This document shows, piece after piece, positions 9,001 to 32,066 of a stretch of 64,000 bases of DNA. Position 1 is the first letter of the stretch; the number at the start of each line of letters is the position of its first letter. The notes beneath the pieces were generated by a model. The model saw nothing but the letters and a program-made list of their open reading frames with translations. It ran no database searches and was not told where the DNA came from. Source of the stretch: Apostichopus japonicus. Its lineage: Eukaryota > Echinodermata > Holothuroidea > Aspidochirotida > Stichopodidae. The position numbers and the translations under genes are program-made. The stretch spans positions 27,811,841 to 27,875,840 of the forward strand of contig NC_092575.1 in NCBI RefSeq assembly GCF_037975245.1. Reading direction: 5' to 3'.

Positions 9001-11546
9001 AAAGAACATTACCTACAGTTTGTCTATTAGTATACAGTACATTAGAAAGAAGAACATTACCTTACAGTATGTCTATACGTATACATAACATTAGAAAGAA
9101 GAACATTACCTTACAGTTTGTCTATTAGTATACAGTACATCAGAAAGTAGAACATTACCTTACAGTATGTCTATAAGTATACATTACATTAGAAAGAAGA
9201 ACATTACCTTACAGTTTGACTATTAGTATACAGTGCATTAGAAAGAAGAACATTACCTTACAATATGTCTATTAGTATACAGTAGATCAGACAGAAGAAC
9301 ATTACTTTGCAGTATGTCTATACGTATACATTACATTAGGGAGAATAACATTACTTTACAGTTTGTCTATTATGATATATTACATTAGAAAGAAGAACAT
9401 TACCTTACAGAATGCTTATTAGTATAGAGTAGATTAGAGAGAAGAACATTACCTTACAGTATGTCGAAACGTATACATTACATTAGAGAGAAGAACATTA
9501 CCTTACAGTTTGTCTATTAGTATACATTACATTAGAAAAAAGAACATTACCTTACAGTATGTCTATTAGTATACAGTACATTAGAAAGAAGAACATTACC
9601 TTACAGTATGTCTATTAGTATACATTACATTAGAAAAAAGAACATTACCTTACAGTATGTCTATTAGTATACAGTACATTAGAAAGATGAACATTAACTT
9701 ACAGTATGTCTATACGTATACATTAAATTAGAGAGAATAACATTACCTTACAGTTTGTCTAATTTTATATATTACATTAGAAAGAAGAACATTACCTTAC
9801 AATATGTCTATTAGTATGCAGTAGATTAGAGAGAAGAACATTACCTTACAGTTTGTCTATTAGTATACAGTACAGTAGAAAGAAGAATATTACCTTACAG
9901 TATGTTTATTAGTATACATTACATTAGAAAGAAGAACATTACCTTACTGTATGTATACATCATATTATACAGTACATTGGAAAAAAAGAACATTACCTTA
10001 CAGTTTGTCTATTAGTATACAGTACAGTAGAAAGAAGAATATTACCTTACAGTATGTTTATTAGTATACATTACATTAGAAAGAAGAACATTACCTTACT
10101 GTATGTATACATCATATTATACAGTACATTGGAAAAAAAGAACATTACCTACAGTTTGTCTATTAGTATACAGTACATTAGAGAGAAGAACATTACCTTA
10201 CAGTATGTCTATACGTATACATAACATTAGAAAGAAGAACATTACCTTACAGTTTGTCTATTAGTATACAGTACATTAGAAAGAAAAACATTACCTTACA
10301 GTATGTCTATACGTATACAGTACATTAGAAAGAAGAACATTACCTTACAATATGTCTATTAGTATACAGTAGATCTGAGAGAAGAACATTACTTTACAGT
10401 ATGTCTATACGTATACATTACATTAGAGAGAATAACATTACTTTACAGTTTGTCTATTATGATATATTACATTAGAAAGAAGAACATCACCTTACAGGAT
10501 GCTTATTAGTATAGAGCAGATTAGAGAGAAGAACATTACCTTACAGTTTGTCTATTAGTATATATACAGTACATGAGAGAGAAGAACATTACCTTACAGT
10601 TTGTCTAATTTTATATATTACATTAGAAAGAAGAACATTACCTTACAATATGTCTATTATTATACAGTACATTAGAGAGAATAACATTACCTTACAGTAT
10701 GTCTATTAGTATACAGTACATTAGAAAGAATAACATTACCTTACAGTTTGTCTATTAGTATACAGTACATTAGAAAGAAGAAAATTACCTTACAGTTTGT
10801 CTATTAGTATACAGTACATTAGAAAGAAGAACATTACCTTACAGTATGTCTATTAGTATACAGTACATTAGAAAGAAGAACATTACCTTACAGTATGTCT
10901 ATTAGTATACAGTACATTAGAAAGAAGAACATTACCTTACAGTATGTCTATTAGTATATATACAGTACATGAGAGAGAAGAACATTACCTTACAGTACGT
11001 CTATGAGTATACAGTAGATTAAAGAGAAGAACATTACCTTACAGTATGTCTATACGTATACATTACATTAGAGAGAATAACATTACCTTACAGTTTGTCT
11101 ATTATTATATATTTCATCACAAAGAAGAACATTACCTTACAGCATCTCAATACGTATACATTACATTAGAGAGAATTTCATTACTTTACAGTTTGTCTAT
11201 TATTATATATTATATTAGAAAGAAGAACATTACCTTACAGAATGCTTATCAGTATATAGTAGATTAGAGAGAAGAACATTACCTTACAGTATGTCTATTA
11301 GTATACATTACATTAGAAAGAAGAACATTACCTTACAGTATATCTATTAGTATACAGTACATTAGAAAGAAGAACATTACCTTACAGTATGTCTATTACA
11401 GTATACAGTACATTAGAAAGAGAACATTACCTTACAGTTTGTCTTTTAGTATACAGTACATTAGAAAGAAGAAAATTACCTTACAATATGTCTATTAGTA
11501 TGCAGTAGATTAGAGAGAAGAACATTACCTTACAGTTTGTCTATAC
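1..11546. repeat. Minisatellite array, left part (unit about 49 bp)
   Basis: The whole stretch is tandem copies of a unit close to 49 bp. Each unit has a purine-rich block (TTAGAAAGAAGAACATTACC), then TTACAGTATGTC, then TATTAGTATACAGTA. Variant units read TATACGTATACATTA or carry an extra TATA. About 235 units fit here, and the array runs off the left edge of the window. Units differ by scattered substitutions and small indels. Some blocks of several units recur as larger copies, for example around 5400-6200 and 6500-7000. Short open frames occur (for example 8865-9128) only because the unit is stop-poor; they look like repeat artefacts. The array resumes at 31012. Confidence 0.97.
11543..11546. 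repeat. Left target-site duplication of element A (ATAC)
   Basis: ATAC sits directly outside the left LTR end and again directly outside the right LTR end at 31012-31015. Removing 11547-31015 restores a normal minisatellite unit reading TGTCTATACGTATA. This shows that 11547-31011 arrived as one integration event with a 4-bp stagger. The neighbouring gypsy element C also has a 4-bp duplication. Confidence 0.9.
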
Positions 11547-11633
11547 TGTAACGCTAACTCAGTCTAAGATTCTGGGGCGTCCAAATATTCCCTGCTGAGG
11601 ACTGGTGGTGGTATGGAAACAAATGCGGCTTGG
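11547..11633 (-). repeat. Element A, LTR 3' end fragment (87 bp) at left boundary
   Basis: This is identical by eye to the reverse complement of 30925-31011, the end of the full LTR. It is fused on its inner side to protease coding sequence, with the shared word CCAAGCCGC at the join. The terminal GTTACA faces the minisatellite, so the exposed end is a U5 end. Confidence 0.85.
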
Positions 11634-12289
11634 TACCACGTGACTCTGGGGATTAACCACAGCTTTAGCTACCATAATCGAGTGTTTCTTTACAAAACTT
11701 TCACAAGGCTCTACAATAAACTCTGTTCCGTCTAATTTATTGGCAAGTTTACCTGGTACTACAATTTCCTGGCCTGGACTTATGCAGACCGTCTCAGCTA
11801 CCGTGATTCTATTCACTACGTTACTAGGGGCATTCAATCTCTCGTTGCCGAAACATTGAACCACAATATTCCCAATTTTTATCTGACCAAGGCCTAGATC
11901 TATTTGGCACTTGTATTTTGCGAGGAAATCACACCCTAATATGAAATCAGAAGATATGTTTGCAACCCACACCGGGTGGCTCGCCGAAAAATCTCCTATC
12001 TTCAATGAAAAATTACCACAACCGAACAACGGTATACTTCGATCATCGGCCATAACCAAGTCCTCTCCAGTTCTCTCTAACTTTGGCCGTGCACTCTGAA
12101 CAATTTCCTGATACATACTACGTTTCACCACACAAATATTTGCACCCGTATCAATCAAGCTATCTAAAGTCCTACCATGGATTTGTATTCTTGCGTACAA
12201 TCCATCTCTATTATTCTTTTCACTAAGTGACGTAACAAAGGGCCTTTTGGGACCACTAGCCGACTCATGGCCCGCTGAACCGGCTTTTA
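11559..12289 (-). pseudogene. Element A protease (aspartic, pol N-terminus), truncated
   Basis: Retropepsin-like protease of a Ty3/gypsy pol. The frame is -1 relative to gag and opens at the gag stop. The catalytic motif LIDTGA is about 45 residues from the shift site, and the flap and fold continue to a second hydrophobic motif (ILGCDFL). The last 23 residues or so are not protease. They are translated from the fused LTR end and stop at its TGA. The linker to reverse transcriptase that should follow lies 17 kb away at 29034-29159, minus strand, so the break is exactly between protease and linker. No ATG is needed because expression would be by frameshift. It acts in maturing the Gag-Pol polyprotein. 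Confidence 0.85.
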
Positions 12290-14330
12290 CTAGTTTCCCG
12301 AGTTATGACTTGTCCCATTGTTATCAGATACTTTTGGTTTTGGACAATCACGAGCAAAATGCCCAACTTCTTCGCAGTTGTAACATTTGTTGTCCCTGAT
12401 CATATTCCTACTCTCTCTCTTACGAGGCTTTTCCGAATTCCCGTGACTCTCCTCTAACGATTTAAAACATTCCTGGATTTTAGCTACCATTTTTTCTACA
12501 ACTTGGTCTAAATTACTCTGTACCTCTGTTGCCAGTTTCTGGTCAGTATCAGGGGGGCCTGACACAGCTCTAACTAACCTTCTACTATTTCTCTGATTTT
12601 CGGCCTGTTGAAACGTTTCAAATTCAATTGCTGTTTTTACTGCGCTGTCCAAACATTTTGGGCGAGACTGATATATTCCCCATCGCATGTCAGTATCAGG
12701 CAGCGCATCAATAAAATGATCTTTTGCCAAGGTCTCTTGTAGATCATAATTTAGCTTCAGGGTAGGCTAATTTAACCAATCTCCGGACTGACTGCGCTGA
12801 TTCTGGAAGGTTTTCACCTTTCTTTCTTTGTTTATTCTTTAACTGAGCACGGAATAATTCTGTTTGATTTTGTGACCCAAAACGTTTGGACAGGGCGGCA
12901 ACAAGCGAATAGTAATTACGACGCATCGAGGTGTCAAGGTCGCCTAATACTGACAGCGCTTCACCTCTTAAGGAAGCGGCAAGATGCATTCCTTTAGAAA
13001 GGGGATCCCATCTATTCATTTCTGCTATCAATTCAAACTGTACAATGTAATCATTCCACTCACTACTCCCGTCAAATGCTACGGGGCGTACTTCCGTTCT
13101 CTTTGGGTATATACGGGAATCTGAGGGAGGTACAGGCAAATCATTAGAATGGTATCTAACGGGCGGGGAATATTCCCCCAACTGCACATTTCTATCCGAG
13201 TTGTTGACAACTTGTCTATCATTAAGTTGATCATCTTCAATTCTCCTATAACTTCTACCAGCCTCCCTATTCACATAATGGCCAGCTCCATGGCGACTTA
13301 CGGAGGGACGGTGGTCCAAGTCGTAACCATAATTATTACATTTACGCCATTCGCCTACACTAGGATAACGTTTCTTATCGTCTGCTCTATCTAACCCCTC
13401 TAGAACTGACCTAGAATTACCTGCACCACTGATCAAATATTTATCTCTATACACTGTATCCTCACTAGGGTAACGGATCCTAGAGAGGGAATCACCCCTC
13501 GAAATTCCACTTGGCCCCGGGCCAGTTACACCACCCCGTGGCATACTGTCAGTCCCAGACTGACGAATTTCGTAACGCGCAGCCCTTGGCTGCAAGTCCT
13601 CCACCCCATATTGGGTCGCATTTCTTGTATCAATTTCCCTGGAACCTCGTCCAGGTACGCCCCCCAGTGGCATATGATCAGACCTAGACTGAAATAAATT
13701 GTACCCTGCAGTCCCTGACTGCGAATGCCTGACCCCCATATGGGCGGGACTTGACGTGTCTCTTTCTCTATCCGATAAACCATCACCAAAATTGATCAAC
13801 GGTGCATTCTCCCTATTAGACACAGTTCTACTGAAACCATTTCCCAGATCAAGTTTAACTACACTATTTGAAATAAAATTACGAGGGCATTCAGTAGGGG
13901 GCACATTTGCCCTCCTCTCACTCACACCATCGTCCACATTCCGGGGCTGCTGGTTTCTTTCTCTCTCCTCAAAATCACGAGAAACCCTCATACGTATGTC
14001 ACCCGTCACAGACAGAGACCTAACAGCCCCGAAGCTTGCTTCGCTATAACGCTTAGGCCCATTTAAGTAATGATTACGAGAATTTGAAAAATACTCACGT
14101 GGTAGCGTACTGCCATCCAAGCCGCCGTCACTGGGGACGCACTCGTCTACCACCATCCAATCCTGATTACACAAAACATTCCCATTCTGAATCTCACTAA
14201 GTGTGGGTTCTTCGCGAACTCTGTTCTCAAACTGTGAGCCCGAACAGGGTGCAACACTCTGTTCCCTACAGGAAACCAGTTCCTGCCTTGACACACAGGT
14301 GTCCGAATCAAAGCTAATTAAATCATTCAT
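12290..14330 (-). pseudogene. Element A gag, frameshifted
   Basis: Capsid/nucleocapsid gene. The reading starts at ATG 14330 (an upstream TTG at 14336 is in frame). About 350 residues rich in Arg, Ser, Asn and Gly come first, then a Retrotrans_gag-like capsid region near residues 390-530 (motifs WNDYIVQFE, MHLAASLRGEA). A frame change near 12745 splits it: the first frame stops at 12744, while the capsid C-terminus and a CCHC zinc knuckle (CYNCEEVGHFARDC) continue in another frame to the TAG at 12290. The knuckle would bind RNA. The long basic-polar N-terminal extension is unusual compared with element C gag (316 residues). The frameshift implies that this copy cannot make Gag. Confidence 0.85.
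12293..12299 (-). promoter_or_regulatory. Element A, -1 ribosomal frameshift heptamer GGGAAAC
   Basis: On the minus strand the gag frame reads TCG GGA AAC TAG. The heptamer G GGA AAC fits the X XXY YYZ slippery rule and ends right at the gag stop. A -1 slip leads straight into the protease frame, which is open from here. The heptamer and frames are seen directly; that ribosomes slip here is inferred from retroviral and retrotransposon practice. Confidence 0.7.
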
Positions 14331-14351
14331 GCTCAACAGAAAACAGAATCC

Positions 14352-14367
14352 GACCGCTTGCCACCAA
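14352..14367 (-). promoter_or_regulatory. Element A, primer-binding site candidate
   Basis: On the minus strand the LTR end GTTACA is followed at once by TTGGTGGCAAGCGG, beginning with the TGG expected to pair with a tRNA CCA end. Element C has the related TGGTGTCAGAAGTGG in the same place. The primer tRNA is not identified. It is not tRNA-Asp, whose complement would be TGGCTCCCCAGCGG. Confidence 0.6.
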
Positions 14368-14392
14368 TGTAACGCTAACTCAGTCTAAGATT
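14368..14392 (-). repeat. Element A, 25-bp LTR end joined to tRNA-Asp
   Basis: These 25 bp equal the last 25 bp of the LTR, in minus-strand sense, next to the primer-binding site and gag leader as expected for a 5' LTR. The LTR match stops abruptly at 14392/14393, where tRNA-Asp sequence begins. Confidence 0.85.
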
Positions 14393-14463
14393 TGGCTCCC
14401 CAGCGGGGAATCTAACCCCGGTCTTCCGCGTGACAGGCGGAGATACTCTCCACTATAGGCTAC
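14393..14463 (-). tRNA. tRNA-Asp (GTC)-derived sequence with templated CCA, fused into element A
   Basis: Minus-strand sense. The sequence shows an A-box region TATAGTGG, anticodon arm CCGCCTGTCACGCGG with anticodon GTC, the T arm CGGGGTTAGATTCCCCG, the acceptor 3' half CTGGGGAG and then CCA. CCA is not encoded in eukaryotic tRNA genes, so the source was probably a mature tRNA copied by reverse transcriptase. The acceptor 5' half is missing and is replaced by pol sequence, so this is not a functional tRNA gene. The T loop has TTAGATT rather than TTCGATT. The plus strand reads TGGCTCCCC immediately after the 25-bp LTR piece. Confidence 0.75.
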
Positions 14464-14737
14464 TTAGTTTTACTACGGGTTACAACCGTACATACGTGGG
14501 TGTCAAGGGTACCCCCACTTTCACTGAGTTGTTGTCCAGTAAGATTCCCCCCAGTATCTTCTACTGTACTTAATTCCGTTTCCTCTAAACGGAGGCAATA
14601 CCTATAATCTACGCACGGGCGTCGGGAAAGCGCATCTGCATTCCCGTGTTTACTTCCTGGACGGTGCTGAATTTCGTAGTTATAAGTGTCCAGCATTTCA
14701 AGCCATCGCGCAATCTGCCCCTCGGGTTGTTTAAAAT
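14460..14737 (-). pseudogene. Element A, RNase H C-terminus and RNase H-integrase linker
   Basis: The fragment starts around FKQPEGQIARWLEML and continues with the end-of-RNase-H signature GSKHGNADALSRRP, then a linker ending TRSKTK and a stop at the tRNA junction. This is the typical tail of a gypsy RNase H domain. The catalytic part of RNase H and the connection to reverse transcriptase (about 150 residues by comparison with element C) are absent. Sequence above 14737 does not look like pol. No integrase follows. Confidence 0.8.
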
Positions 14738-15168
14738 GAAAGTGGAACGATAGTGACAGAAAAAAATCTCTCATTTTCATATATAATGTAGTTTATATGT
14801 TACCAAGCAACATTTATTTTTAATTTTCCAAATAGCAGACCGGAAAGTTATAAAAAAGGGAATTAAAACATCGTTTTTTCGTCTCCGTAATTTAGGAATT
14901 TGCAAACACTGCAACGACCTTGAACAACCCTCAGGTCAGTGAATGACGTCACTGTGATGCTCTTTTTCTGTTGTGAACTGTTCAGTACGGAGCTGTGCGT
15001 GCATTTCGTGTCAGCATAACTGTTTTTCCCGGCGTAATGTTCAAGACATAAATAGATAATGAATATCATGGTGTTTCTTGATTTCTTCACCACGTGTTTA
15101 CAAGTTTTTTTTTTACGAAATTTGCGGCGATTTCGCAACGATTTCCCAATATCTGAAGAGGTAACTTA
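14738..15168. other. Unassigned 430-bp segment replacing part of element A pol
   Basis: This lies between the RNase H fragment and the left end of element B and has no resemblance to pol. A 91-residue open frame on the minus strand (14863-15138) is rich in Lys, Cys and Ser but I cannot assign it. About 450 bp of pol are missing at this place, so the segment probably came in with a deletion or template switch. It ends with AACTTA, and the TA at 15167-15168 borders element B. Confidence 0.5.
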
Positions 15169-15186
15169 TGGAACGCCAAAAGGGCA

Positions 15187-17180
15187 ATGTATTTTGTTGT
15201 CTCCTTTGATGTTGTCTCCTTCGATGCTGTTGTCTACTTTAATGTTGATGTTTACTTTGTGTTGTCTCATTTGATGTTGTTGTTTTCTTTGATGTTGTTG
15301 TCTACTTTTATACCGTTGTCTACTTCCATATTGTTGTCTCCTTTGATGCCGTTGCCTCCTTTAATGCCGTTGCCTCCTTTAATGCCATTGTCTACTTTAA
15401 TGTTGTTGTCTACTTCAATGTTGTTGTCTCCCTTAATGACGTTGTCTCCTTTAATGTTGTTGTCTCCCTTGATGCCGTTGTCTACTTTAATGTTGTTGTC
15501 TCCTTTGATGTTGTTGTCTCCTTTGATGCCGTTGCCTCCTTCAATGCCGTTGCCTCCTTTAATGCCATTGTCTACTTTAATGTTGTTGTCTACTTCAATG
15601 TTGTTGTCTCCCTTAATGACGTTGTCTCCTTTAATGTTGTTGTCTCCCTTGATGCCGTTGTCTACTTTAATGTTGTTGTCTCCTTTGATGTTGTTGTCTC
15701 CTTTGATGCCGTTGCCTCCTTCAATGCCGTTGCCTCCTTTAATGCCATTGTCTACTTTAATGTTGTTGTCTACTTCAATGTTGTTGTCTCCCTTAATGAC
15801 GTTGTCTCCTTTAATGTTGTTGTCTCCCTTGATGCCGTTGTCTACTTTAATGTTGTTGTCTCCTTTGATGTTGTTGTCTCCTTTGATGCCGTTGCCTCCT
15901 TTAATGCCGTTGCCTCCTTTAATGCCATTGTCTACTTTAATGCCATTGTCTACTTCAATGTTGTTGTCTCCCTTAATGACGTTGTCTACTTTAATGTTGT
16001 TGTCTCCCTTGATGCCGTTGTCTACTTTAATGTTGTTGTCTCCTTTGATGTTGTTGTCTCCTTTGATGCCGTTGCCTCCTTTAATGCCGTTGCCTCCTTT
16101 AATGCCATTGTCTACTTTAATGCCATTGTCTACTTTAATGTTGTTGTCTACTTCAATGTTGTTGTCTCCCTTAATGACGTTGTCTCCTTTAATGTTGTTG
16201 TCTCCCTTGATGCCGTTGTCTACTTTAATGTTGTTGTCTCCTTTGATGTTGTTGTCTCCTTTGATGCCGTTGCCTCCTTCAATGCCGTTGCCTCCTTTAA
16301 TGCCATTGTCTACTTTAATGTTGTTGTCTACTTCAATGTTGTTGTCTCCCTTAATGACGTTGTCTCCTTTAATGTTGTTGTCTCCCTTGATGCCGTTGTC
16401 TACTTTAATGTTGTTGTCTCCTTTGATGTTGTTGTCTCCTTTGATGCCGTTGCCTCCTTCAATGCCGTTGCCTCCTTTAATGCCATTGTCTACTTTAATG
16501 TTGTTGTCTACTTCAATGTTGTTGTCTCCCTTAATGCCGTTGTCTACTTCAATGTTGTTGTCTCCCTTAATGCCGTTGTCTCCTTTAATGTTGTTGTCTC
16601 CCTTGATGCCGTTGTCTCCCTTGATGCCGATGCCTCATTTAATGCTGTTGTTGTCTACTTCAATGTTGTTTTCTCCTCTGATGCCGTTGCCTCCTTTAAT
16701 GTTGTTGTCTCCTTTGATGCCGTTGCCTCCTTCAATGCCGTTGCCTCCTTTAATGCCATTGTCTACTTTAATGTTGTTGTCTACTTCAATGTTGTTGTCT
16801 CCCTTAATGACGTTGTCTCCTTTAATGTTGTTGTCTCCCTTGATGCCGTTGTCTACTTTAATGTTGTTGTCTCCTTTGATGCCGTTGCCTCCTTTAATGC
16901 CGTTGCGTCCTTTAATGCCGTTGTCTACTTTAATGTTGTTGTCTCCCTTAATGCCGTTGTCTACTTCAATGTTGTTGTCTCCCTTAATGCCGTTGTCTCC
17001 TTTAATGTTGTTGTCTCCCTTGATGCCGTTGTCTCCCTTGATGCCGATGCCTCATTTAATGCTGTTGTTGTCTACTTCAATGTTGTTTTCTCCTCTGATG
17101 CCGTTGCCTCCTTTAACGTTGTTGTCTACTTTGATGCCGTTGTCTCATTTGATGCCGTTGTCTACTTTGATGCTGACGGC
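15187..17180 (+). repeat. Element B left arm: 18-bp repeat with 180-bp higher-order unit
   Basis: Units are variants of TTGATGCCGTTGTCTCCT (18 bp). Ten variants form a 180-bp block that recurs nearly unchanged at 15421, 15601 and 15781, then with one 18-bp slip at 16141 and 16321. Because 18 is a multiple of three and the unit lacks stops in several frames, a 673-codon open frame spans the array (15187-17208), and other frames are also open. This is not evidence of a protein. Confidence 0.93.
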
Positions 17181-17478
17181 GCTGTTCACCAAAAGCAGTA
17201 TGGTATGACGTCAAAGTACGTAATATAGCGCGCATATATGGATTGATCAGTATGTACGTGCACATACATTTGCCCGTGACTACATTGCTTGGAAAAATAA
17301 AATCGCAATTCAAGGACATTAATATTAACAATTTCGAAGAAACAATAAACCATGCGCAAGATCGTGATACGTGGCGGAGGTTAATCACTGAGCATGTCGG
17401 ATAGACGAGACTCAACTTACTACTTACTACTACTACGTGCACATAAATGTGACGGCACTATCAAGTTCTAGCTAGATA
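17181..17478. other. Element B inner unique sequence, left
   Basis: Unique sequence between the left arm and MITE D. I see no gene, RNA or regulatory signal I can support. Short open frames here are not convincing. Confidence 0.5.
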
Positions 17479-18212: not shown

Positions 18213-18214
18213 TA

Positions 18215-18414
18215 TGCTGACTTTATTACCCCTCTCTTCTAAAGTTGTCGATCACCAGTTGATTATACTCCAGTCTGGATAGAATTCCTTCCATACTTCT
18301 GAGCTGTTGTGAGAACCTTAATAACGGCAGTACAGGTGAAGCACGACAATAAGAAAACGCAGTAGGCCTAGGCCCTACATGTATTCTCGGCATATGCGAA
18401 TAGCGTGACTTTAC
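18215..18414. other. Element B unique sequence between MITE D and retrotransposon C
   Basis: About 200 bp that joins, after removing C, to 26781-26940. It contains a TAGGCCTAGGCC-type palindrome. No gene seen. Confidence 0.5.
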
Positions 18415-18418
18415 TACG

Positions 18419-19969: not shown

Positions 19970-19972
19970 TTT

Positions 19973-19990
19973 TGGTGTCAGAAGTGGGAT
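19973..19990 (+). promoter_or_regulatory. Element C primer-binding site
   Basis: TGGTGTCAGAAGTGGGAT begins three bases after the LTR end. Its start TGG fits pairing with a tRNA CCA end. The primer tRNA cannot be named from this alone. Confidence 0.7.
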
Positions 19991-20043
19991 AGGCAATACT
20001 ATTTTTAAAATCTAAAACGGCATAAAAGGGCGGTGGATATAAA

Positions 20044-20994: not shown

Positions 20995-23900
20995 AAACAT
21001 CCAGCACAGTGAGCCATGTTCTGGGTGAGATTGTAACAGAGACGCAAGGGGGCTCAACAGATTTCTATTCATCTATTGTTGGGGAGCGACCTACTACCAC
21101 TGTGCTGATGAATGGCTCTCGGATTAAGGCAGTTATTGATACGGGTTCAGCTGTAACACTTCTATCCAAGGCTCATTTCTTGACCTTGTTTGCAGGGAAG
21201 TCACTAGTAGAATTAAGGTGGCTTGGGTTAAAGGCAGTCAATCAAACAAGGATTCCCTTCTTGGGATATTTTGAGATAGATGTAGAAGTTGGTGGCGAAG
21301 TGATACCCAACCGTGGTATTCTGGTGGTTGAAGATGATCAAGACCCTCCATTGTTACTGGGCATGAATATCATCCACCGAATGTCAGGAGAAGTTCTTGT
21401 TGACATGCTTGGGTACAAAATGGATGAGTCGATGCTGTCGAAGCCAGTCTCTACTTTGGCACGGATACCTGGGAAAAACAAAGTTAAGTTGCCAGCAAGA
21501 TCAGTCCAGGTGGTTAATGTCTCCTGTCCTGTGCATGCGTCGGCAACAGAAGTGGTAATAGAACCAGTCAGCCAACTGCCGAAGGGAGTTTCTGTAGGCG
21601 CAACTCTGACAGTTGGTACAAATAGACTTCATCTTCAAGTCATGAATCTTACCGATGAAGACATTTGGCTGGAACCTAGGACACCTCTAGGAATTATCCA
21701 GTCTCCATCCTTTGTTGAAGACGGTCTTGTCACTGGGGAGAAAGCTGAAATTCAAGTAAACCAGATCACCACAGAAACACCTTCATTCCATGAGACTGCT
21801 ATACCTTTTACCCTATCACCAAGTTTGACCCCAACTCAACGACAGCAGGCAGTTGACTTGATCAACAGAAATCAGGACATATTTGCTTATTCTGATGACC
21901 AGCTGGGTTTTGCTGAAGGAGTCACACATAAGATCAACACTATAGATGACATTCCAGTTAAGCAGCCTCACCGACGGATTCCACCTTCACAATGGGAAGA
22001 GGTCAAGGAACATATCCGGAAGTTGCTAGATAATGGGGTCATAAGGCCGAGTACCAGTCCGTACGCATCGCCGATTGTGTTAGTCCGCAAGTCTGACGGC
22101 AGTCTTCGTCTTTGTGTTGACTACCGCAAACTTAATATGAAGACTATTAAGGATGCCTATCCGATTCCCAGAATAGATGAGTCAATCGATGCTTTACATG
22201 GAACGAAGTGGTTTTCTACCATCGACCTTCTTTCAGGGTATCATCAAGTTGCCATGGAAGAGGCTGATAAACATAAGACAAGTTTTACAACACCATTTGG
22301 TTTGTATGAATATAATCGGATGCCATTCGGTCTGTCAAACGCTCCTGGTACCTTTCAACGGTTAATGCAGGCTTGTCTACATGACCAATTCTTCACCTCT
22401 GTGCTTTGCTACCTCGACGACATCCTGGTGTTTTCCAAGTCCTTTGATGATCATCTGGTCAATTTACAAAGAGTATTCGATAGACTCCGGCAACAAGGCC
22501 TGAAAATAAAACCATCGAAGTGCACCTTCTTCCAGTCTGAAGTGAAGTATCTGGGTCATCGAGTAACTGCGGATGGAGTAAGACCAGATCCTGACAAGGT
22601 TCAAGCCGTTAAGAATTGGCCTGAGCCACAGAATGTGAAGGATCTACGATCGTTTCTGGGATTTTGCTCCTTTTACCGACGGTTTGTCGTAGATTTCGCC
22701 AAGACGGCAAAGCCACTCCATGCACTGGTGTCCACTAGCCTACAAAATCAACGTGCTAAGAAAGAAACACCGTTTCTCTGGACAAACGAGCATCAGATTG
22801 CATTCCAAGAACTGAAGGATAAGATGTGCCGACAGGTTGTGTTAGCTTATGCTGACTACTCACAACCATTTGAAGTTGAAATTGATGCGTCACTCCAAGG
22901 TTTGGGTGCTGTCCTATTGCAACGCCAGGATGGACAACGAAAGGTCATAGCCTTTGCCAGCAGAACTCTCCGAGGTGCAGAGAGAAATATGCAGAAGTAT
23001 TCCAGTTTCAAGTTAGAACTGCTTGGTCTGAAATGGGCAGTAACCGAGAAGTTTCGGGAATACTTGCTGGGCAACAAGTTCATCGTCTACACGGACAATA
23101 ACCCCTTAGCTCACTTGGATAATGCTAAACTTGATGCAGCATCACAACGATGGGTAGGAGCTCTTGCTTCATTCGATTTCACTCCCAAGTACAAACCAGG
23201 AAGGTTGAACACTGGAGCCGATGCCCTGTCCAGACGCCCACATGTGCCACAGCCTGATGTAACCTTGAGTGAACTTGGTCAAGGAGTAGGACTAACAGTT
23301 GTTCCTGCAGAATTGATTGAGGCAATTTCCAAGCCAAATGTGGAAGTGAGTGTCAATCAAGTGAATGCCGTGAAGACATCACCTTTGGTGTTCCCATCCT
23401 ACACCAAGGACCAACTAAGAAATTTCCAACAGAACGATCCAGTAATTAGAAAGTTCTACACTTTCTGGTTGACCAAGAAGAAACCGTCAGTTGAAGAACG
23501 AGTAAAACATAGTGAGATGTCCCTACTTGTGAAGCAGTGGGAGAAAATTCAAGAGTATGAAGGACTCTTGTATCGGTCTATAGAAGATGGGAAGAAACTG
23601 CAGTTAATTCTTCCAAAAGTTCTCCAAGAAGAAGTGCTATTTGCCTGTCATGACCAATGCGGACACCAAGGGTACAAAAGGACATTGTCACTCATCCAAG
23701 ATCGGTGCTACTGGCCAAAATTTTCCCAAGACGTAGCCTCCTATTGTGAAAGGTGTAACGAGTGCACACGGTGCAAAAGGCCACCCAAGATCAGAGAACC
23801 ACTGAAGAGCATGATGGCAACCAGGCCAAACGAAATCCTTGCTATAGATTTCACCACCATTGAGAAAGACACAAGAGGCAAGGAAAACATACTTGTGATG

Positions 23901-25034
23901 ACCGATGTCTTTTCCAAGTTTACGCAGGCTATACCTACATCTAACCAGACTGCGGAGACAACTGCTAAGGTATTAGTTCGGAACTGGTTCCTTTTGTATG
24001 GACCACCAAAGAGACTCCACTCTGACCAGGGCCGAAATTTTGAATCGTCCCTTATACAATGCCTATGTAAAGTGTATGGGGTCAACAAGAGCCGAACAAC
24101 ACCCTACCATCCTGAAGGCAACGGCCAAGCAGAGCGGTTCAACAGAACTCTGCATGATCTTCTGAAGACTCTACCGCCAAACAAGAAGCGCCGTTGGTCA
24201 GACCATCTCCCAGAAGTCCTGTATGCTTATAATTCCACACCACACACTTCCACAAGTCTGTCTCCTTTCTTCTTGATGTTTGGAAGGGATCCAATCCTTC
24301 CAGTAGATTACCTGCTGGGGCGTGTAGATTCTCCATCTGACTCAGACGACACGGATCCCATTGCTAGCTGGGTGACGTCACACACCGAGAATTTACAGAT
24401 GGCGTTCAGGAAAGCAGGGGAGCAGATGTCTTTGGAAGCAGAGGCTCGTAAAACCCAGTATGACAAGAAGGCCAAATCGCATCCAATAACTCTTGGAACC
24501 AGGGTATACCTGAAAAACCATCCCCGTGGAATGCACAAGATAGCAGATGAATGGGGTTCCACAGTCTTTAAAGTGGTCTCTCGCCCCAATGCAGGTTCTG
24601 TGTACGTCATCGAACCGGCCGATGGTAGTGGTGGACAACGAACGGTACACCGGCGGGAAATACGGACATGCCCACAGCTGATAGACGTACCTGTTGCTGT
24701 CTTCAAACCCGTTGCCCCAGCTCAGTGTGATCGGGAAAGAGAGTCTTCCAGTGACTCTAGTAGTGACGAGGATTATGGTTTCCGTCGACGCTTTGAAGGT
24801 GCCCTAACGAGACGTAAGCAATCAACCAGTGATGACTCTGATTCATGGTCTGATGACAGCGAGGTCACCCAACCACTACGTCGCAGTGCTCGAGTCACCA
24901 GAGGGTTTCACTCTAACATCAGCCACCTGCCAAGAAGTATCAGCAGTGTGACAAATAGTACCTTGTATGATAGTAAGTTATCAGATTTGTGTCGGCAAAC
25001 CCAAAATTTGCTGGAGCGTGTCAAACGTTGTTAG
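20901..25034 (+). CDS. pol: Element C Pol polyprotein (protease, RT, RNase H, integrase)
   Basis: 1377 codons from the first in-frame ATG. Real translation most likely enters by -1 frameshift near 20985, because the frame overlaps gag by 94 bp. Domains in order: protease with VIDTGS near residue 75; reverse transcriptase about 350-610 with YLDDILVF active site; RNase H about 650-780 (EIDASLQGLGAVL, ending LNTGADALSRRP); integrase zinc finger with HxxxH and CxxC near 900-950 (CGHQGYKR, CERCNECTRCK); integrase core with D, D and E in LAIDFT, HSDQGRNFES and HPEGNGQAERFNRT; then a C-terminal domain and a Ser/Asp-rich tail. All catalytic motifs are present and no stop interrupts, so this copy could be active. 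Confidence 0.95.
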   Translation: MPSMPKDRSFGEGMPQPSTSVTCRHSTSGKLETSSTVSHVLGEIVTETQGGSTDFYSSIVGERPTTTVLMNGSRIKAVIDTGSAVTLLSKAHFLTLFAGKSLVELRWLGLKAVNQTRIPFLGYFEIDVEVGGEVIPNRGILVVEDDQDPPLLLGMNIIHRMSGEVLVDMLGYKMDESMLSKPVSTLARIPGKNKVKLPARSVQVVNVSCPVHASATEVVIEPVSQLPKGVSVGATLTVGTNRLHLQVMNLTDEDIWLEPRTPLGIIQSPSFVEDGLVTGEKAEIQVNQITTETPSFHETAIPFTLSPSLTPTQRQQAVDLINRNQDIFAYSDDQLGFAEGVTHKINTIDDIPVKQPHRRIPPSQWEEVKEHIRKLLDNGVIRPSTSPYASPIVLVRKSDGSLRLCVDYRKLNMKTIKDAYPIPRIDESIDALHGTKWFSTIDLLSGYHQVAMEEADKHKTSFTTPFGLYEYNRMPFGLSNAPGTFQRLMQACLHDQFFTSVLCYLDDILVFSKSFDDHLVNLQRVFDRLRQQGLKIKPSKCTFFQSEVKYLGHRVTADGVRPDPDKVQAVKNWPEPQNVKDLRSFLGFCSFYRRFVVDFAKTAKPLHALVSTSLQNQRAKKETPFLWTNEHQIAFQELKDKMCRQVVLAYADYSQPFEVEIDASLQGLGAVLLQRQDGQRKVIAFASRTLRGAERNMQKYSSFKLELLGLKWAVTEKFREYLLGNKFIVYTDNNPLAHLDNAKLDAASQRWVGALASFDFTPKYKPGRLNTGADALSRRPHVPQPDVTLSELGQGVGLTVVPAELIEAISKPNVEVSVNQVNAVKTSPLVFPSYTKDQLRNFQQNDPVIRKFYTFWLTKKKPSVEERVKHSEMSLLVKQWEKIQEYEGLLYRSIEDGKKLQLILPKVLQEEVLFACHDQCGHQGYKRTLSLIQDRCYWPKFSQDVASYCERCNECTRCKRPPKIREPLKSMMATRPNEILAIDFTTIEKDTRGKENILVMTDVFSKFTQAIPTSNQTAETTAKVLVRNWFLLYGPPKRLHSDQGRNFESSLIQCLCKVYGVNKSRTTPYHPEGNGQAERFNRTLHDLLKTLPPNKKRRWSDHLPEVLYAYNSTPHTSTSLSPFFLMFGRDPILPVDYLLGRVDSPSDSDDTDPIASWVTSHTENLQMAFRKAGEQMSLEAEARKTQYDKKAKSHPITLGTRVYLKNHPRGMHKIADEWGSTVFKVVSRPNAGSVYVIEPADGSGGQRTVHRREIRTCPQLIDVPVAVFKPVAPAQCDRERESSSDSSSDEDYGFRRRFEGALTRRKQSTSDDSDSWSDDSEVTQPLRRSARVTRGFHSNISHLPRSISSVTNSTLYDSKLSDLCRQTQNLLERVKRC

Positions 25035-25206
25035 ACAACCTTGATTGTAGATAAACAGTTTTTTTTGCTAGCAATAGTTTGCCTGAGTACTTTTAGTTGG
25101 TAGTGCGGATACGCATGTATATTTTTTTTGTAAAAGTTTTCTTTCGTATTAATCCATTTTATCGTATTTCAGATATCTCGTATACATTGGTCGTTTGAGG
25201 ACAAAC

Positions 25207-25225
25207 TTCCTTTAGCAGGGGAGAG
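25207..25225 (+). promoter_or_regulatory. Element C polypurine tract
   Basis: GCAGGGGAGAG abuts the 3' LTR start TGTGAGG. It would prime plus-strand DNA synthesis. The preceding T-rich stretch is typical of gypsy elements. Confidence 0.75.
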
Positions 25226-26776
25226 TGTGAGGTAGTGCCCATTAGGCTACCGATTATTTACGTAATGTGCATGTTCTCTCTAGTATACTTTTGTTCTATT
25301 CGGCGTCCCATGTTCAGCGCTTGCGGTTTCGCTCAGTAAGCCCTGTTCGTTCTCTCTTTATTCTATTCATTACGAAATCACCTTGCTTTACGTTCAACGG
25401 CAGCCATATTGTATATTACTATTTTGTTCTCATTACCGTCATTTATTGAGAGATGTAGTTCATCAGCCAACATGTTAGAGGTAAATACTATCTTAACTGT
25501 ATTTGATACTTTTCGTCTCTAATTAAGTAGTTTTGAAAGCGAGATTAGGCAAACTTTTCGTAGACCCACAGTCGGGCCTCGTAAACACTCGCTGTTCAAA
25601 GTGTGCATACACTGTGCAACTTGTATTGTTCACCATATAGCTTCATTGTGTAAGGTACAGCGTGGTATTTCGTATAAACCCCGCAGATAGGCTGGTCTTT
25701 TTCAACTTAAATACATTTATCATCGGGCTTGTATCATGTAGATTTTATGTTCATTTTGTGGAGCAGATCCTTAAGATCATTATTGGATAACGTTGTATGA
25801 GCATTATTGTTTTATTAACGGCAAAGGTTAAGTTAAGTAAAAGTATTTAAGACTGGGCCCTTTGTTTCGTTACTGGCCCAATATTATGTAAATATTGTAT
25901 ATATCGCTGACACGATTTCAGGTTAGCGCCCTCTTTTTGTAATTAAGATGGCGGCGCCCATGTGCGTTACACCAATGTACCGTATGGAGTTGTTTAGGCC
26001 TGAAGTTGTAACTGGTCTATTATACTAGAAGTTTTGCTTGTATTTTAGCTTGTATTGATATTACTCTCATGTTTATTTTATATTCTTTTATCTTATTTTA
26101 TTGTTTTCTATTTTATATTCTTTTCTCTTATTTTATTGTTTTCTTAACCTATTTGCCTGGTCTATATAGCCAATAGCCTAGGGCTTAATTACTTACCTCT
26201 ATGGGTTATATTATTATCTCATAAGGAAATGTACTGGTTTAATTGTATGTTGGTTAAAGCCACCTGTTTTCTATATTTATCAAAGACTGTTTCACGATTA
26301 CGATGAAGGTTATACTTGTTGTAGTATAGAGATTGTTGGGCAGACGTGTCCTTGGATTTAAATATCCCTCTCTCATTGGTTAGTTGAGCGAAACTATGTT
26401 AACCTGACCCAAAATGGTCGCAGTTTAATGTATTGGTATTAGGTTTAACATAGGGTGTAGGCTTAAATGTCAGCCCTATTCAGTATAATTTTCTGCTATT
26501 GTTAGAGTTGCCTAATGGATATGTAAGAGTTCAGGTCATACAGTTACCAGTCATTTTCGTAAGATGTCTTGCCCATATATTTTCTTATTTTATATTTATT
26601 AGTTTTGTTCTTCCTTTTTATTTTGCAGTAGTTTACTCATCTCCAAGAGTAGATATTATCCACCGCCCTCTTACCATGCTTAAACATAACCCCCAATAAA
26701 GTTGCCACCACGTACGGAGAAGTACGGAATCTATTTGATTTGTTTTGTTTGTTCTTCCTTACTCTCTGTCATTACA
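25226..26776 (+). repeat. Element C 3' LTR (1551 bp)
   Basis: Same length as the 5' LTR, with one visible difference (C at 26558). AATAAA at 26695-26700. Followed directly by the TACG duplication. Confidence 0.95.
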
Positions 26777-26780
26777 TACG

Positions 26781-26945
26781 TACATTTACATCACTCACAT
26801 CAGTCTATTACAGTCTAGTAACCGGTCGTGCAGCGCACCACTGCACCGTACGTATTACGTACACGTTGTATCCAGGGACCAGCTAGACCTCAACGAACAT
26901 TTAGATTCCCGCCATTTTACAATAGCGCTATTATATACTAAAAGT
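26781..26945. other. Element B inner unique sequence, right
   Basis: Continues the sequence interrupted by element C. Contains several ACGTAC/TACGTA words but no gene. It leads into the inverted minisatellite arm. Confidence 0.5.
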
Positions 26946-27472
26946 AAACAGCATATTAGAGAACGGCATCAAATGAGACAACAACATCAAAGTAGACAAC
27001 GGCATCGAAGGAGGCAACAGCATTGAAGTAGACAACGGCATTAAAGGAGGCAACAACATTGAAGTAGACAACGGCATTAAAGGAGGCAACGGCATCAGAG
27101 GAGACAACACCATTGAAGTAGACAACAACATTAAAGTAGGCAACAACATTAAACGAGACAACAACATTGAAGTAGACAACGGTATTAAAGTAGACAACAA
27201 CATTAAAGTAGACAACAATTAACATTAAAGTAGACAACGGCATTAAAGGAGGCAACTGCATCAGAGCAGACAACAACATTAAAGTAGACAACGGCATTAA
27301 ATGAGACAACGGCATCAAATGAAACAACGGCATAAAAGTAGACAACAACATCAAAGGAGACAACAACATCAAATGAGACAACATAAAAGTAAACAACATT
27401 AAATTAGACAACAGCATCGAAGGAGACAACATCAAAGGAGACAACAAAATACATTTCCCTTTTGGCGTTCCA
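26946..27472 (-). repeat. Element B right arm: inverted 18-bp repeats and terminal inverted repeat
   Basis: Reverse complement of the same 18-bp family as the left arm, but shorter and more varied, without the 180-bp order. The outer 70 bp match the left end closely (TGGAACGCCAAAAGGG then AATGTATTTTGTTGTCTCC). Open frames on both strands are repeat artefacts. Confidence 0.88.
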
Positions 27473-27474
27473 TA

Positions 27475-28441
27475 CAATAAGAGTGAAGTTTTTAACAAAC
27501 TTCCTGTAATAAGAACATAAACCTACAAATCCTCTCACGTAACGAACACAATTTGGCCTTGGCCAATTTTTAACAACAGCCACCTTTGACGGATCAGTCG
27601 AAACTCCGTCCTTGCTAACTACGTGTCCAAGGAAATCCACTTTTTGTTTGAAAAGAAAACATTTCTTAGGCGACAGTTTCAGTCCCGCTAATTTGAACCT
27701 CGTAAAAACATCATCTATGGCAGCAATGTGTTCCTCAAAATTCTTTCCAAAAATAATTACATCGTCTAGATAGACTAAACATGTTTGCCACTGCAAACCA
27801 GATAAAATTTTCTCCATCAATCTTTCAAAGGTGGCTGGTGCATTGCAAAGCCCGAACGGCATGACACAAAACTGATATAGACCACTGTGGGTGATAAAAG
27901 CGGTCTTTTCCCTATCAGACTCGTCCATTTCGACCTGCCAGTAGCCACTCGCTAGGTCGAGGGTCGTAAACCAAGTGGAGCCATTAAGACTATCTAAGGA
28001 GTCATCGATTCTAGGGATCGGGTAGCTATCTTTAGTGGTAATATCGTTAAGCCTACGATAATCTACACAAAAACGAGTTGATCCATCTTTCTTTTTAACT
28101 AAAACAACTGAAGACGCCCATGGGCTAGATGAAGGTTCAATCACCCCCCGTCTTAACATATCTGAAACCTCGTTAGCCGCATCCTCTCTTTTATTCAGAG
28201 GCAGTCTCCTAGCATGTTGTTTAATAGGGGTCACCTCTTTAGTTGGAATTTTGTGTTTCACAATATCAGTCCTTCCTAAATCCTCCTTACACTTTGCCAA
28301 AATACTCTCATGCTTCAGAAGAAGCCTCCTAACTAAAGCTTTTTGATTTTCATCAAGTGATCCTTCCAAAGAGTTGTACAACCCTAAAATGTGCTGTGGT
28401 AAGTCAGTGACTGTAGCAGTTACAGACTCAGAAATGGTGAC
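27475..28441 (-). pseudogene. Element A reverse transcriptase, truncated
   Basis: Ty3/gypsy reverse transcriptase on the minus strand. It shows the N-terminal approach (LPQHILGLYNSL), the fingers and palm motifs RFCVDYRRLNDI, YPIPRIDDSLD, LDLASGYWQVEM, MPFGLCNAPATFERLM, the active site YLDDVIIFG, and LGHVVSKDGVSTDP. It breaks off after FVGLCSYYRKFVKNF at element B. The thumb-connection and most of RNase H are missing from the other side of B, so B's entry or an earlier rearrangement deleted about 450 bp. On its upstream side it is cut by the 587-bp insertion. Confidence 0.9.
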
Positions 28442-29028
28442 AATTTTTTTCTATACTGATGATAGTTTATTCAACATCAACGTGAAAACTAAAAAGACAA
28501 AAAGACTAAAGTACATAAAAACCGGCACATAGTGCATATTACATACTAATGAAGCAATACAATAAATCCGATGACGTCAGCTCCTTGAGGTTGTAGACTA
28601 CACGAGCATATAACATAAAATGTGATATCACTATAATCATATCGTGGACGGAATTAAGGTAAGAACTTACAAAAATAAGGTTAAAACAACATCTTGATCT
28701 TAAAAGTTAATTATGTCACTTTAACCGGTACAATATTATTCTTAACACAGACAGGCACAAATTGCCTACATTGCTAACCTTGGTTGCCTTTCTGAGATCT
28801 CTGCTAAGTAAAAGTAAAGATGAATCGCTGCTTGTCGGTTTCCATTAATAATATTTGCAAGGCCAGCTTCAAACAAAGTATGATTGATCACTAAAATTAC
28901 ATTTTTAAAGGTTGCTAAAAGCTTATTCGGTTTCTCTGGTGCTGCAAGTTTCTAGTAATGGCAATAGAGGGCGCAATTAAAGAATAAAAAAAATAACATA
29001 AAGAAAATAGGTTAATACTACATTTACA
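28442..29028. mobile_element. Unclassified 587-bp insertion in element A pol
   Basis: GTGAC occurs on both sides (28437-28441 and 29029-29033). Removing the insertion and one GTGAC joins the protease-RT linker to the RT in frame (GGVT followed by ISES). The insert starts AATTTTTTTC and ends CATTTACA on the plus strand. It has no obvious terminal inverted repeat and no coding capacity, and contains a T-rich run and the word TGCGCCCTCTATTG. It could be a solo LTR-like or SINE-like element; I cannot assign it. Confidence 0.65.
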
Positions 29029-29033
29029 GTGAC

Positions 29034-29159
29034 TCCCCCACCCTCATTGGAAGTGTCACCCTCCGTGTTTTGTACCGATAAAACTTCCTCTACAGGCTCA
29101 CACGTGGCCGCCGTAACTCCTTCATACACCGTGACCGGCACTGAATCTACATTAATCAT
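29034..29159 (-). pseudogene. Element A protease-RT linker fragment
   Basis: The minus-strand frame reads a linker typical of gypsy pol between protease and RT (VPVTVYEGVTAATCEPVEEV). It is the natural continuation of the protease, whose pol-like part ends near 11634. The fragment starts sharply at 29160, where the element switches to plus-strand sense. Confidence 0.7.
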
Positions 29160-29162
29160 GGG

Positions 29163-29699
29163 ACTGGGCCACAGATTGCCAATTCAAAGTCGAGTCCTGC
29201 TGTGACACCGAATAACAATGAGTGGCTAAATGATATTTCTTTGGCTTTTGGCACCGAGGATCTACCCCCGTCACCTTTCGATCCGTTAGCTGCCCTCATC
29301 GAAGCGAGCGACCAATCGTGTGAGAACGCCCCCGCCTCAACGGTAGACTGCGGACCTATCGACCTTTCGTTTGGACCCAGTGATAAACGAGCGCCAACCC
29401 CCCTGACATCACCCATTGAGGATAGCTCTACACCTTCCCCAACCACTTCAACATCAACCCCTTCAACAGCATCGTCGGATTCAACTCTGGATGACAAAGA
29501 ACTGACCCGTCTGCGGAACCTGATGGTTACTTCAAGGATTCCACTCATCATCAACGCGGAAGTAAAAAACCTTGGTCTTGGAGTTATTTACAGGAAGGAA
29601 AAACATACTGTCCAATACCCAGATGGTACAGTCCTTACCACAGAGAAGGAGGGATTCGAATTACCCCCACAGACCAGCGAACTGTTGACTTACCGTTAA
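29163..29699 (+). pseudogene. Element A pol C-terminal tail
   Basis: An open frame of about 178 codons with no start at the junction. It is rich in Pro, Ser, Thr and Asp, then ends in a folded-looking segment (NLGLGVIYRKEKHTVQYPDG, LLTYR stop). Its place, just upstream of the 3' untranslated region and LTR, marks it as the C-terminal tail of pol or a small third ORF. I do not recognise a domain. It is in the opposite orientation to the RT and gag fragments of the same element. Confidence 0.55.
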
Positions 29700-30454
29700 T
29701 CCATAGAGATGTCCTCGATCGGGACTTTTGTGTTAAATAACGTGTTTCTTTATTATATATTTTTACTGTGGAAATATTATGGACATTTCACCTTATTACT
29801 ATGGACATTTCACCTTTTGATGCGGACCTCCGGTTTCGTTATGATATCTTTTTACTTTGGAAATCTTGTGGACATTTCATATTTTGATGCGGACTTCCAA
29901 TCAATTTATTTTGTGGTTTGGATCTCTGTGTTACAACAAGAGTGTTATGTTTTGATTCACTTGGATTGTTTTCATGTATTTATATCTATGTACGGCACCG
30001 TAAGTTGTTTTTAATTTTATCAGTTGTATCTGGAATGTGACCTCACATGAGTCCAAATTGCACTTTCGCGCGAGCCGCGTTATTCCTTTAGGGTATGGAC
30101 ACGTGCATGTAAGGTCATATTACTCTTCTATTACTCTCGGATTGCGTAACTTTCTTCTTTCGCAGTCGAGCTAGGACATTTTTTTTAGTCGGTACAGATT
30201 GACATGTGATACGTTTTTATCTCAAAAGTTAGTTCTGAACCCATATTAAGAGTTAATATCAAATGTTATTGTGTGTATAGGCTCTCGTGCATGGCAGGCA
30301 CTATTAGCTATACTTTGCTTTTATACGTATTCATGTATTTGGATTTCTTTTTATATTAGTATGTTTATGATTTTAGATTTGTGTCTAATTAGCGATCCTT
30401 ATACTATATTGTTTTCATAACTTGGGGACAAGTTAAGGACTGAGAAGGGGATAG
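29700..30454 (+). other. Element A 3' untranslated region and polypurine tract
   Basis: About 750 bp of non-coding sequence. It contains a short direct repeat of GGACATTTCACCTT near 29787-29817. It ends with the purine run AAGGACTGAGAAGGGGATAG directly before the LTR, which is the polypurine tract. Confidence 0.7.
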
Positions 30455-31011
30455 TGTGATGCCGTTAGTCATCATATATGTCGCCCTCTATTTGTCGTAG
30501 GCTACATTACGTAATAATTACAGGTCACGTGATGTCTGCTCACCAGCTCAGCTGAAGCAGACCTCACGACTTGTGACCAGTCTTCGCTCCCGATCTGAAT
30601 CGTTCGGTTCGGTAGTAGCCCTGGCTCCGACCATTGTGGTCGTACTTGTATCTGTCTTGTATTCGTCTTTTATACACTTTTGTACGTATCGTTATAGGAC
30701 TCTACTTCGGTATTGAGACCTCGTTTGTGACCATTATCGTTAAGTGCATGTTTTCTACCTATTTTTGAGGGCTTCGTGCCGATGTATTGTTCGTACCGTG
30801 GCTGGTTATAGTAATAGATTGCGAAATCTACACAGCACTTGTTCTTTACTCGTTTATCTATGTGTTATATCTTTTGCATGTAATAGCGAGATTTAAGGCT
30901 CGTCGTTTACTAACATACAACCATCCAAGCCGCATTTGTTTCCATACCACCACCAGTCCTCAGCAGGGAATATTTGGACGCCCCAGAATCTTAGACTGAG
31001 TTAGCGTTACA
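30455..31011 (+). repeat. Element A full LTR (557 bp)
   Basis: Starts TGTGATGCCG after the polypurine tract and ends TTAGCGTTACA before the ATAC duplication. Its last 87 bp and last 25 bp recur at 11547-11633 and 14368-14392 in reverse orientation, identical by eye. Confidence 0.85.
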
Positions 31012-32066
31012 ATACGTATATATTACATTAGAGAGAATAACATTACCTTACAGTTTGTCTATTATTATATATTACATTAGAAAGAAGAACATTACCTTAC
31101 AGTATGTATATATCATTATGCAGTACATTAGACAGAATAAAATTACCTTACAGTTTGTCTATTATTATATATTACATTAGAAAGAAGAACATTACCTTAC
31201 AATATGTCTATTAGTATGCAGTAGATTAGAGAGAAGAACATTATCTTACAGTTTGTCTATTAGTATACAGTACATTAGAAAGAAGAACATTACCTTACAG
31301 TATGTCTATTAGTATACATTACATTAGAAAGAAGAAAATTCCCTTACAGTTTATCTATTAGTATATAGTACATTAGAAAGAAGAACATTACCTTACAGTT
31401 TTTCTATTAGTATATAGAACATCAGAAAGAATAACATTACCTTACAGTTTGTCTATTAGTATACAGTACATCAGAAAGAATAACATTACCTTACAGTTTG
31501 TCTATTAGTATATAGTACATTAGAAAGAAGAACATTACCTTACAGTTTGTCTATTAGTACATAGTACATCAGAAAGAAGAACATTACCTTACAGTTTGTC
31601 TATTAGTATATAGTACATTAGAAAGAAGAACATTACCTTACAGTTTGTCTATTAGTATACAGTACATTAGAAAGAAGAACATCACCTTACAGTATATCTA
31701 TTAGTATATATACAGTACATTAGAAAGAAGAAAATTACCTTACAGTTTTTCTATTAGTATATATAGTACATTAGAAAGAAGAACATTACCTTACAGTTTG
31801 TCTATTAGTATATGGTACATTAGAAAGAAGAACATTACTTTACAGTTTTTCTATTAGTATATAGAACATCAGAAAGAATAACATTACCTTACAGTTTGTC
31901 TATTAGTATACAGTACATTAGAAAGAAGAACATTACCTTACAGTATATCTATTAGTATATATACAGTACATTAGAAAGAAGAAAATTACCTTACAGTTTG
32001 TCTATTAGTATGCAGTACATTAGAAAGAAGAACATTACCTTACAGTTGTCTATGTATACAGTCATG
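31012..32066. repeat. Minisatellite array, right part
   Basis: The same 49-bp family as at 1-11546, about 21 units, starting with the ATAC duplication and ending near GTTGTCTATGTATACAG. Several units carry TATATAGTACAT variants. Beyond 32066 the sequence is unique. Confidence 0.95.

Follow-up and report, generated by a model that had tools for sequence, protein, structure and literature searches.

A 64,000-nt stretch of the Apostichopus japonicus genome (contig NC_092575.1, positions 27,811,841–27,875,840; hereafter the window, whose coordinates are used throughout) holds a rearranged copy of a young Ty3/gypsy-type long terminal repeat (LTR) retrotransposon, which we interpret, with a probability of roughly 85%, as the single insertion of an aberrant reverse-transcription product. 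The parts of this chimera are described relative to three points of the normal element: X, in the linker between protease and reverse transcriptase (RT); W, behind RNase H; and Y, from which the sense tail begins. In window order they are:

11543–11546, plus strand: left target duplication ATAC, inside a 49-bp minisatellite.
11547–11633, minus strand: piece D, complement of the final 87 nt of the LTR, probable strong-stop DNA (R-U5); its inner end is LTR position 471.
11634–14392, minus strand: piece A, complement of protease (by Pfam), gag (by position), primer binding site and the last 25 nt of U5, with the order taken from mapping; 96.8–98.7% identical to ten normal copies.
14393–14463, minus strand: reverse-transcribed mature tRNA-Asp(GTC), running from CCA and nt 73 to about nt 7; two extra nucleotides separate nt 10 from nt 11, and A stands in place of C56.
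14464–14737, minus strand: piece B, part 1, a pol fragment downstream of RNase H starting at W, from mapping to normal copies.
14738–27474, no strand assigned: insertion that, by mapping, takes the place of about 375 nt of normal sequence; a foldback-like insert (about 4.37 kb) that holds an LTR element.
18419–26776, plus strand: nested Ty3/gypsy-type LTR element with LTRs at 18419–19969 and 25226–26776 and a TACG target duplication, its ends trimmed by eye.
27475–28412, minus strand: piece B, part 2, RT region (PF00078, E 7.9e-40; best solved match, Ty3 RT).
28413–29026, no strand assigned: 614-bp insertion, from mapping, with the 8-bp duplication CAGTGACT.
29027–29160, minus strand: piece B, part 3, protease/RT linker up to X, from comparison with normal copies.
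29161–29162, plus strand: 2 nt (GG) at the turn-round point, matching neither side in an ungapped alignment.
29163–31011, plus strand: piece C, sense tail from Y, polypurine tract (PPT) and a complete LTR (30455–31011, 557 bp).
31012–31015, plus strand: right target duplication ATAC, from flank comparison.

The most prominent feature of this architecture is its pair of ends. Positions 11547–11633 are the exact reverse complement of 30925–31011 (87 of 87 nt), and both outer ends of the copy are U5, in inverted orientation (TGTAAC.../...GTTACA), in place of the direct LTRs with one U3 and one U5 end that bound an ordinary element. The last 25 nt of U5 occur a further time at 14368–14392. The segment from W to Y, which spans 1,896 nt in the normal copy L036 and carries the integrase domains, is missing, and the chimera as assembled is without integrase coding.

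Genome searches, which covered 671.6 Mb in 35 contigs and whose repeat counts are lower bounds, place the pieces in a family with many near-identical copies. All 40 LTR matches scored among 258 candidates show 98–100% identity, and many are paired about 7–8 kb apart. Eight LTR pairs differ at no position (six pairs) or at one (two pairs), so the family is very young. Normal copies were compared at ten other places, four of them mapped in full against the window and all ten read around X and W. The four mapped copies share the sense order LTR, primer site, gag, protease, X, RT, RNase H, W, integrase, Y, tail, PPT, LTR, and the sequence at X and at W is ordinary in all ten. Because the tail is variable, the normal sequence around Y was found in only three of them (L036, L043 and L051). 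Pieces A and B are 96.8–100% identical to the ten copies, the LTR 98.0–98.9% and the tail pieces 87–99%, the latter partly over short stretches; the comparison with these ten singled out no one source copy. The piece order and the join positions given in an initial annotation of this DNA thus agree with the mapping, as do the two identical inverted U5 ends flanked by ATAC that it described.

The assignment to Ty3/gypsy rests on several features. Pfam recognizes protease and RT in the window and RNase H and integrase in the normal copy L036, which gives the pol order protease, RT, RNase H, integrase characteristic of this group, and the LTRs are of the TG...CA type with a short target duplication of constant length. 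Searched against solved structures, the RT piece matches best 4ol8 (E 1.3e-59) and then Ty3-G, 7q5b (E 1.1e-58); 4ol8 is named as Ty3 RT in PMC5371799. The gag open reading frame (ORF) and the tail gave no Pfam match, and gag is named from its position. The primer site begins with TGG, following the LTR plus one T, and differs from the 3′ end of tRNA-Asp.

Each of the joins 11633/11634, 14392/14393 and 29159/29160, the last of which may sit one base further right, was found once in the genome when up to three mismatches were allowed. The 27 nt starting at LTR position 471 have at least 91 exact genomic matches; the preceding base is the normal T in 89 (including the complete LTR of the window), and the other two are a normal LTR with a point change and the cut piece of the window. 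This 27-nt search, which is blind to neighbours that are T by chance, to differences within the 27 nt and to cuts elsewhere, revealed no second chimera cut at LTR position 471, and by eye the window is the only one of the 91 places where a minus-strand match is followed by a plus-strand match within 40 kb. A 20-kb LTR pair on contig C17, considered as a candidate second chimera, was rejected: mapping shows it to be a normal element broken up by other DNA.

These counts bear on two alternatives. Inverted 87-bp ends with a short duplication do resemble those of a terminal inverted repeat (TIR) DNA transposon, in which case LTR pieces would have become its ends by chance. Such a family should not have each of its three joins once in the genome, nor a single cut piece among at least 91 matches; furthermore, the chimera ORFs matched by Pfam are retroelement protease and RT, and no transposase domain was recognized by Pfam in the eight ORF pieces tested. 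We give this possibility practically no weight, in keeping with the initial annotation, which had favoured a retroelement product over a TIR family and had proposed the search for the three joins. An assembly error that fused pieces of several copies is a more natural concern in a family with many near-identical members, which can confuse assembly. However, misassembly does not create an unencoded CCA on a tRNA copy, additional bases at joins or an intact duplication, and the join between the tRNA CCA and U5 is found nowhere else in the genome; we consider such an error very unlikely.

The 71-nt piece between A and B identifies one of the templates. Compared with the genome, it has 39 other matches among the 40 scored of 87 candidates, and every alignment stops at query base 68, just before CCA. 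None of the 19 genomic tRNA-Asp copies inspected is followed by CCA. As the CCA is absent from the tRNA genes seen, it was a mature tRNA that was reverse-transcribed. ARAGORN assigns tRNA-Asp(GTC) at all six loci tested, and the two best genes (L055 and L056, 98%) differ from the piece by one base over the aligned stretch, C56 being read as A. The identity of the piece was settled by this genome search: its Rfam tRNA match lies below threshold (27.7 bits against a gathering score of 29), and ARAGORN, run on the window with the bacterial code, reported no tRNA. A tandem array of tRNA-Asp genes lies on contig C17 (L057–L073, about 32.083–32.093 Mb, in units of about 190 bp), with one more match at 32.073 Mb.

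At its far end the tRNA copy is disturbed beside nt 9–10: two extra nucleotides stand between nt 10 and 11, followed by GTAG, which corresponds to nt 7–10. In human tRNA-Asp, A9 is almost fully modified to m1A9, and such methylation halts RT or causes errors (PMC7293042). By analogy, an m1A9-type modification may also be present in the tRNA-Asp of this organism; the mismatch at C56 is tied to no modification. Since the primer site mismatches its 3′ end, tRNA-Asp is not the normal primer of the family. A role as an aberrant primer instead of a template was also considered and rejected: by eye, only CCA pairs before the 25-nt remnant of U5, a G has to be skipped, and the final order requires copying of the tRNA in any case.

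The first piece ends at a position of potential significance. From the first T of a TTTAAG motif (438–443) it is 31 nt to an A at LTR position 469, which is the usual spacing between a TATA box and a start site, although 7 of 30 LTRs lack one base (position 452) between the motif and the putative start. Because the end of piece D, at 471, falls 2 nt downstream of this predicted transcription start, the 87 nt are probably minus-strand strong-stop DNA (R-U5) that was moved to a wrong internal site, a reading that seems better than that of U5 alone in the initial annotation. The last 11 nt of the piece match X at 10 of 11 positions, with the next best internal site at 8; in one copy (L047) a single better match exists, the LTR itself. 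The match supports a misplaced first transfer without proving one.

X is used twice. Piece D joins piece A there and piece B exits there, so that two joins cluster within 4 nt; in L036, window base 29159 aligns with position 7591 and window base 11634 with position 7601. B stops after CATG and A begins at TTGG or just after it, with CGGA in between; there is no duplication, and about 4 nt are missing. If the second exit was free over about 4.5 kb (from W back to U5), we estimate that a landing within 4 nt would occur by chance in about 0.2% of cases. Possibly, a single RNA was read twice after an RNase H cut at X: the first pass from X would have destroyed the RNA upstream, and the second would have run off at X, added 2 nt and switched.

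The same joins bear on autointegration, in which integrase would have attached the cDNA ends to their own interior and the inverted form would have integrated later. Inverted segments in circular retroviral DNA are known, and were reportedly described by Shoemaker et al. in 1980. Yet the inner joins are not LTR ends (their positions are 87 nt into the LTR, at 25 nt of U5, and at X, W and Y), the site X has lost about 4 nt in place of gaining a duplication, and the tRNA copy is left unexplained, all of which makes autointegration highly improbable.

A scheme of successive template changes accounts for the aberrant copy as follows. A tRNA-primed minus strand would first yield strong-stop DNA (R-U5, 87 nt), whose end would anneal at X in the protease/RT linker in place of the 3′ R and be extended through protease, gag, primer site and 25 nt of U5. 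At the end of the remaining RNA the nascent strand would switch to a mature tRNA-Asp, enter it at CCA and copy it to about nt 7, then jump to W, behind RNase H, and copy back to X. There it would turn onto another, normally started minus strand at Y and copy to the 5′ end of that strand, giving the sense tail, PPT and LTR. A second minus strand appears to be needed because the start of the chimera holds only 87 nt of the LTR, whereas its sense part has the tail, the PPT and a whole LTR. Finally, an integrase not encoded by the chimera would join both U5 ends to the genome with the usual 4-bp duplication; both ends would be U5 because each was set by where a primer tRNA sat. The initial annotation had proposed one minus-strand cDNA that changed template three times and finally switched to its own sense strand. 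The several switches, their number (three and a final one), the entry into the tRNA from its CCA and the turn-round are retained here; the strand itself as last template is not, its own start holding only 87 nt of the LTR. Six nucleotides past the turn-round join, at 29168, GGG replaces the GGA of the three normal copies that are readable there, possibly a copying error near the switch.

Several points weigh against parts of this scheme. The joins are read from assembled sequence, and the transcription start is predicted from our own reading of the promoter. X is the best site when 8 or 11 nt are compared, but with 13 or 15 nt it ties with others, and an internal match of 10 in 11 exists for 34 of 547 LTR 11-mers, so the match at X is not rare. 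X also resembles Y by eye (TGG-ACCAC), and its double use may reflect a hub of similarity instead of a cut template. The 25-nt U5 remnant and W, taken as putative RNase H ends, stand without independent support; and the order of steps is proposed from a single event, no second such copy having been found for comparison. Whether X was a reused RNA or a hub of similarity, an aberrant reverse-transcription product inserted once is left standing. For the fuller version, in which one RNA was used twice, RNase H-cut ends (U5-25, W and X) took part in the joins, a mature modified tRNA served as a bridge and a Ty3/gypsy integrase inserted a cDNA bounded by U5 on both sides and lacking a U3 end, we would put the odds somewhat below even.

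The surroundings of the copy speak to how it was inserted. A 49-bp minisatellite with variant units lies on both sides (4–11544 and 31016–32053, with more than 230 units on the left), and the flanks, when joined with a single ATAC, restore the 49-bp spacing. Target sites were counted for 18 insertions (10 solo LTRs and 8 pairs) out of 30 loci, the window and three LTRs lacking a fetched partner being excluded. In our reading, the duplications of the family are 4 bp long and centred on TA, their first three bases being common to 18 of 18 and all four to 13 of 18. With family-type ends and a 4-bp duplication, the copy in the window has the appearance of an integrase-type insertion, which proceeded normally despite the bad copying, probably because by chance the same correct end stood on both sides. 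In five of the 18 insertions (L002, L011, L014, L016 and L023) a G precedes the 5′ LTR and disagrees with base four of the right-hand duplication; ATAG is likewise the end of the normal PPT, and an extra base may be retained at the U3 end.

The initial annotation took ATAC and the restored unit as proof of one integrase-type event. Both are present, but 19 of 160 anchored left-side units (that of the insertion included) have ATAC at this offset within the unit, and the restored phase alone therefore does not exclude two insertions. Two independent, opposite insertions into the same satellite array, followed by deletions or rearrangement that left the outer U5 ends, could draw both flanks and phase from this recurrence, given the preference of the family for TA-centred 4-bp sites including ATAC. 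They would leave unexplained a CCA-bearing tRNA copy between family pieces, two joins at the same point X and an 87-nt LTR piece ending near a predicted RNA start, and would require several further breaks; we regard them as unlikely. The identity of the two U5 pieces dates the event poorly, since 22 of the 29 other LTRs carry these 87 nt unchanged; a recent event, which the initial annotation had derived from this identity, is instead in line with the youth of the family.

The same annotation described a 19.5-kb retroelement. DNA absent from normal copies (14738–27474 and 28413–29026) accounts for 13,351 bp of this length, and the pieces without it total 6,114 nt, or about 6.5 kb once the roughly 375 nt displaced by the larger insert are counted, so that the chimera would have measured about 6.1–6.5 kb when it was inserted. 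Both inserts lie inside piece B, where the mapped normal copies are continuous, and for this reason would have arrived after integration. The larger one is a foldback-like insert (14738–18417 and 26783–27474) with inverted arms of an 18-bp minisatellite, and it replaces about 375 nt of its host retroelement rather than simply interrupting it. Within it, the nested element 18419–26776, whose two LTRs differ at one position and whose TACG duplication was found by eye, is very young as well, and pieces of protease, RT, RNase H and integrase are recognized in it by Pfam. The smaller insert, 28413–29026, has a duplication of hAT-like size. Beyond the copy, on the minus strand, two ORFs at 32162–33508 and 38327–39085 contain LRAT (lecithin retinol acyltransferase) domains.

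Most of what is known of aberrant cDNAs with inverted or internal transfers comes from retroviral vectors and unintegrated DNA. Pulsinelli and Temin are said to have reported, in 1991, large deletions in retroviral vectors caused by strand-transfer errors; to our knowledge, their cases involved no turn-round, tRNA copy or two-U5 integration. The closest solved RT is that of yeast Ty3 (Metaviridae), with which the present case shares a tRNA-primed minus strand, strong-stop DNA, RNase H removal of R-U5 and transfer; in Ty3, hydrolysis of the template's R and U5 by RNase H permits the first transfer (PMC5371799). In contrast to Ty3, the first transfer here would be internal, in our reading, and the product lacks a 5′ LTR, being bounded by U5 on both sides. 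Chimeric retrogenes made by template jumps of LINE RTs likewise fuse copies of several RNAs in one retrogene (PMC2104539; for U6 pseudogenes, PMC4476161), but their insertion is of the LINE type, whereas an LTR-type RT and integrase-type ends are found here. The R2 RT performs sequential jumps between RNA templates, tRNA cloning and misreading at modified bases in OTTR (PMC12140624), that enzyme being an engineered non-LTR one acting in vitro. Template switching has also been proposed to yield integrated HIV-1 proviruses with a deleted 3′ LTR, and no inverted two-U5 provirus is described in the available text on these asymmetric-LTR proviruses (PMC9278108). Among the titles and abstract openings listed by searches of an open-licence library, none describes an integrated element with two U5 ends.

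The locus is most likely an authentic, single and natural record of a failed reverse transcription that was still integrated by two U5 ends. Here an aberrant cDNA has become fixed in a chromosome, with an anatomy sufficient to read each change of template. It suggests that integration in vivo needs no more than two U5 ends, that integrase worked on a cDNA not coding for it, and that an LTR-type RT can use a mature tRNA as a template from its CCA end. It also serves as a warning that a retroelement can generate TIR-like inverted ends together with a short duplication.

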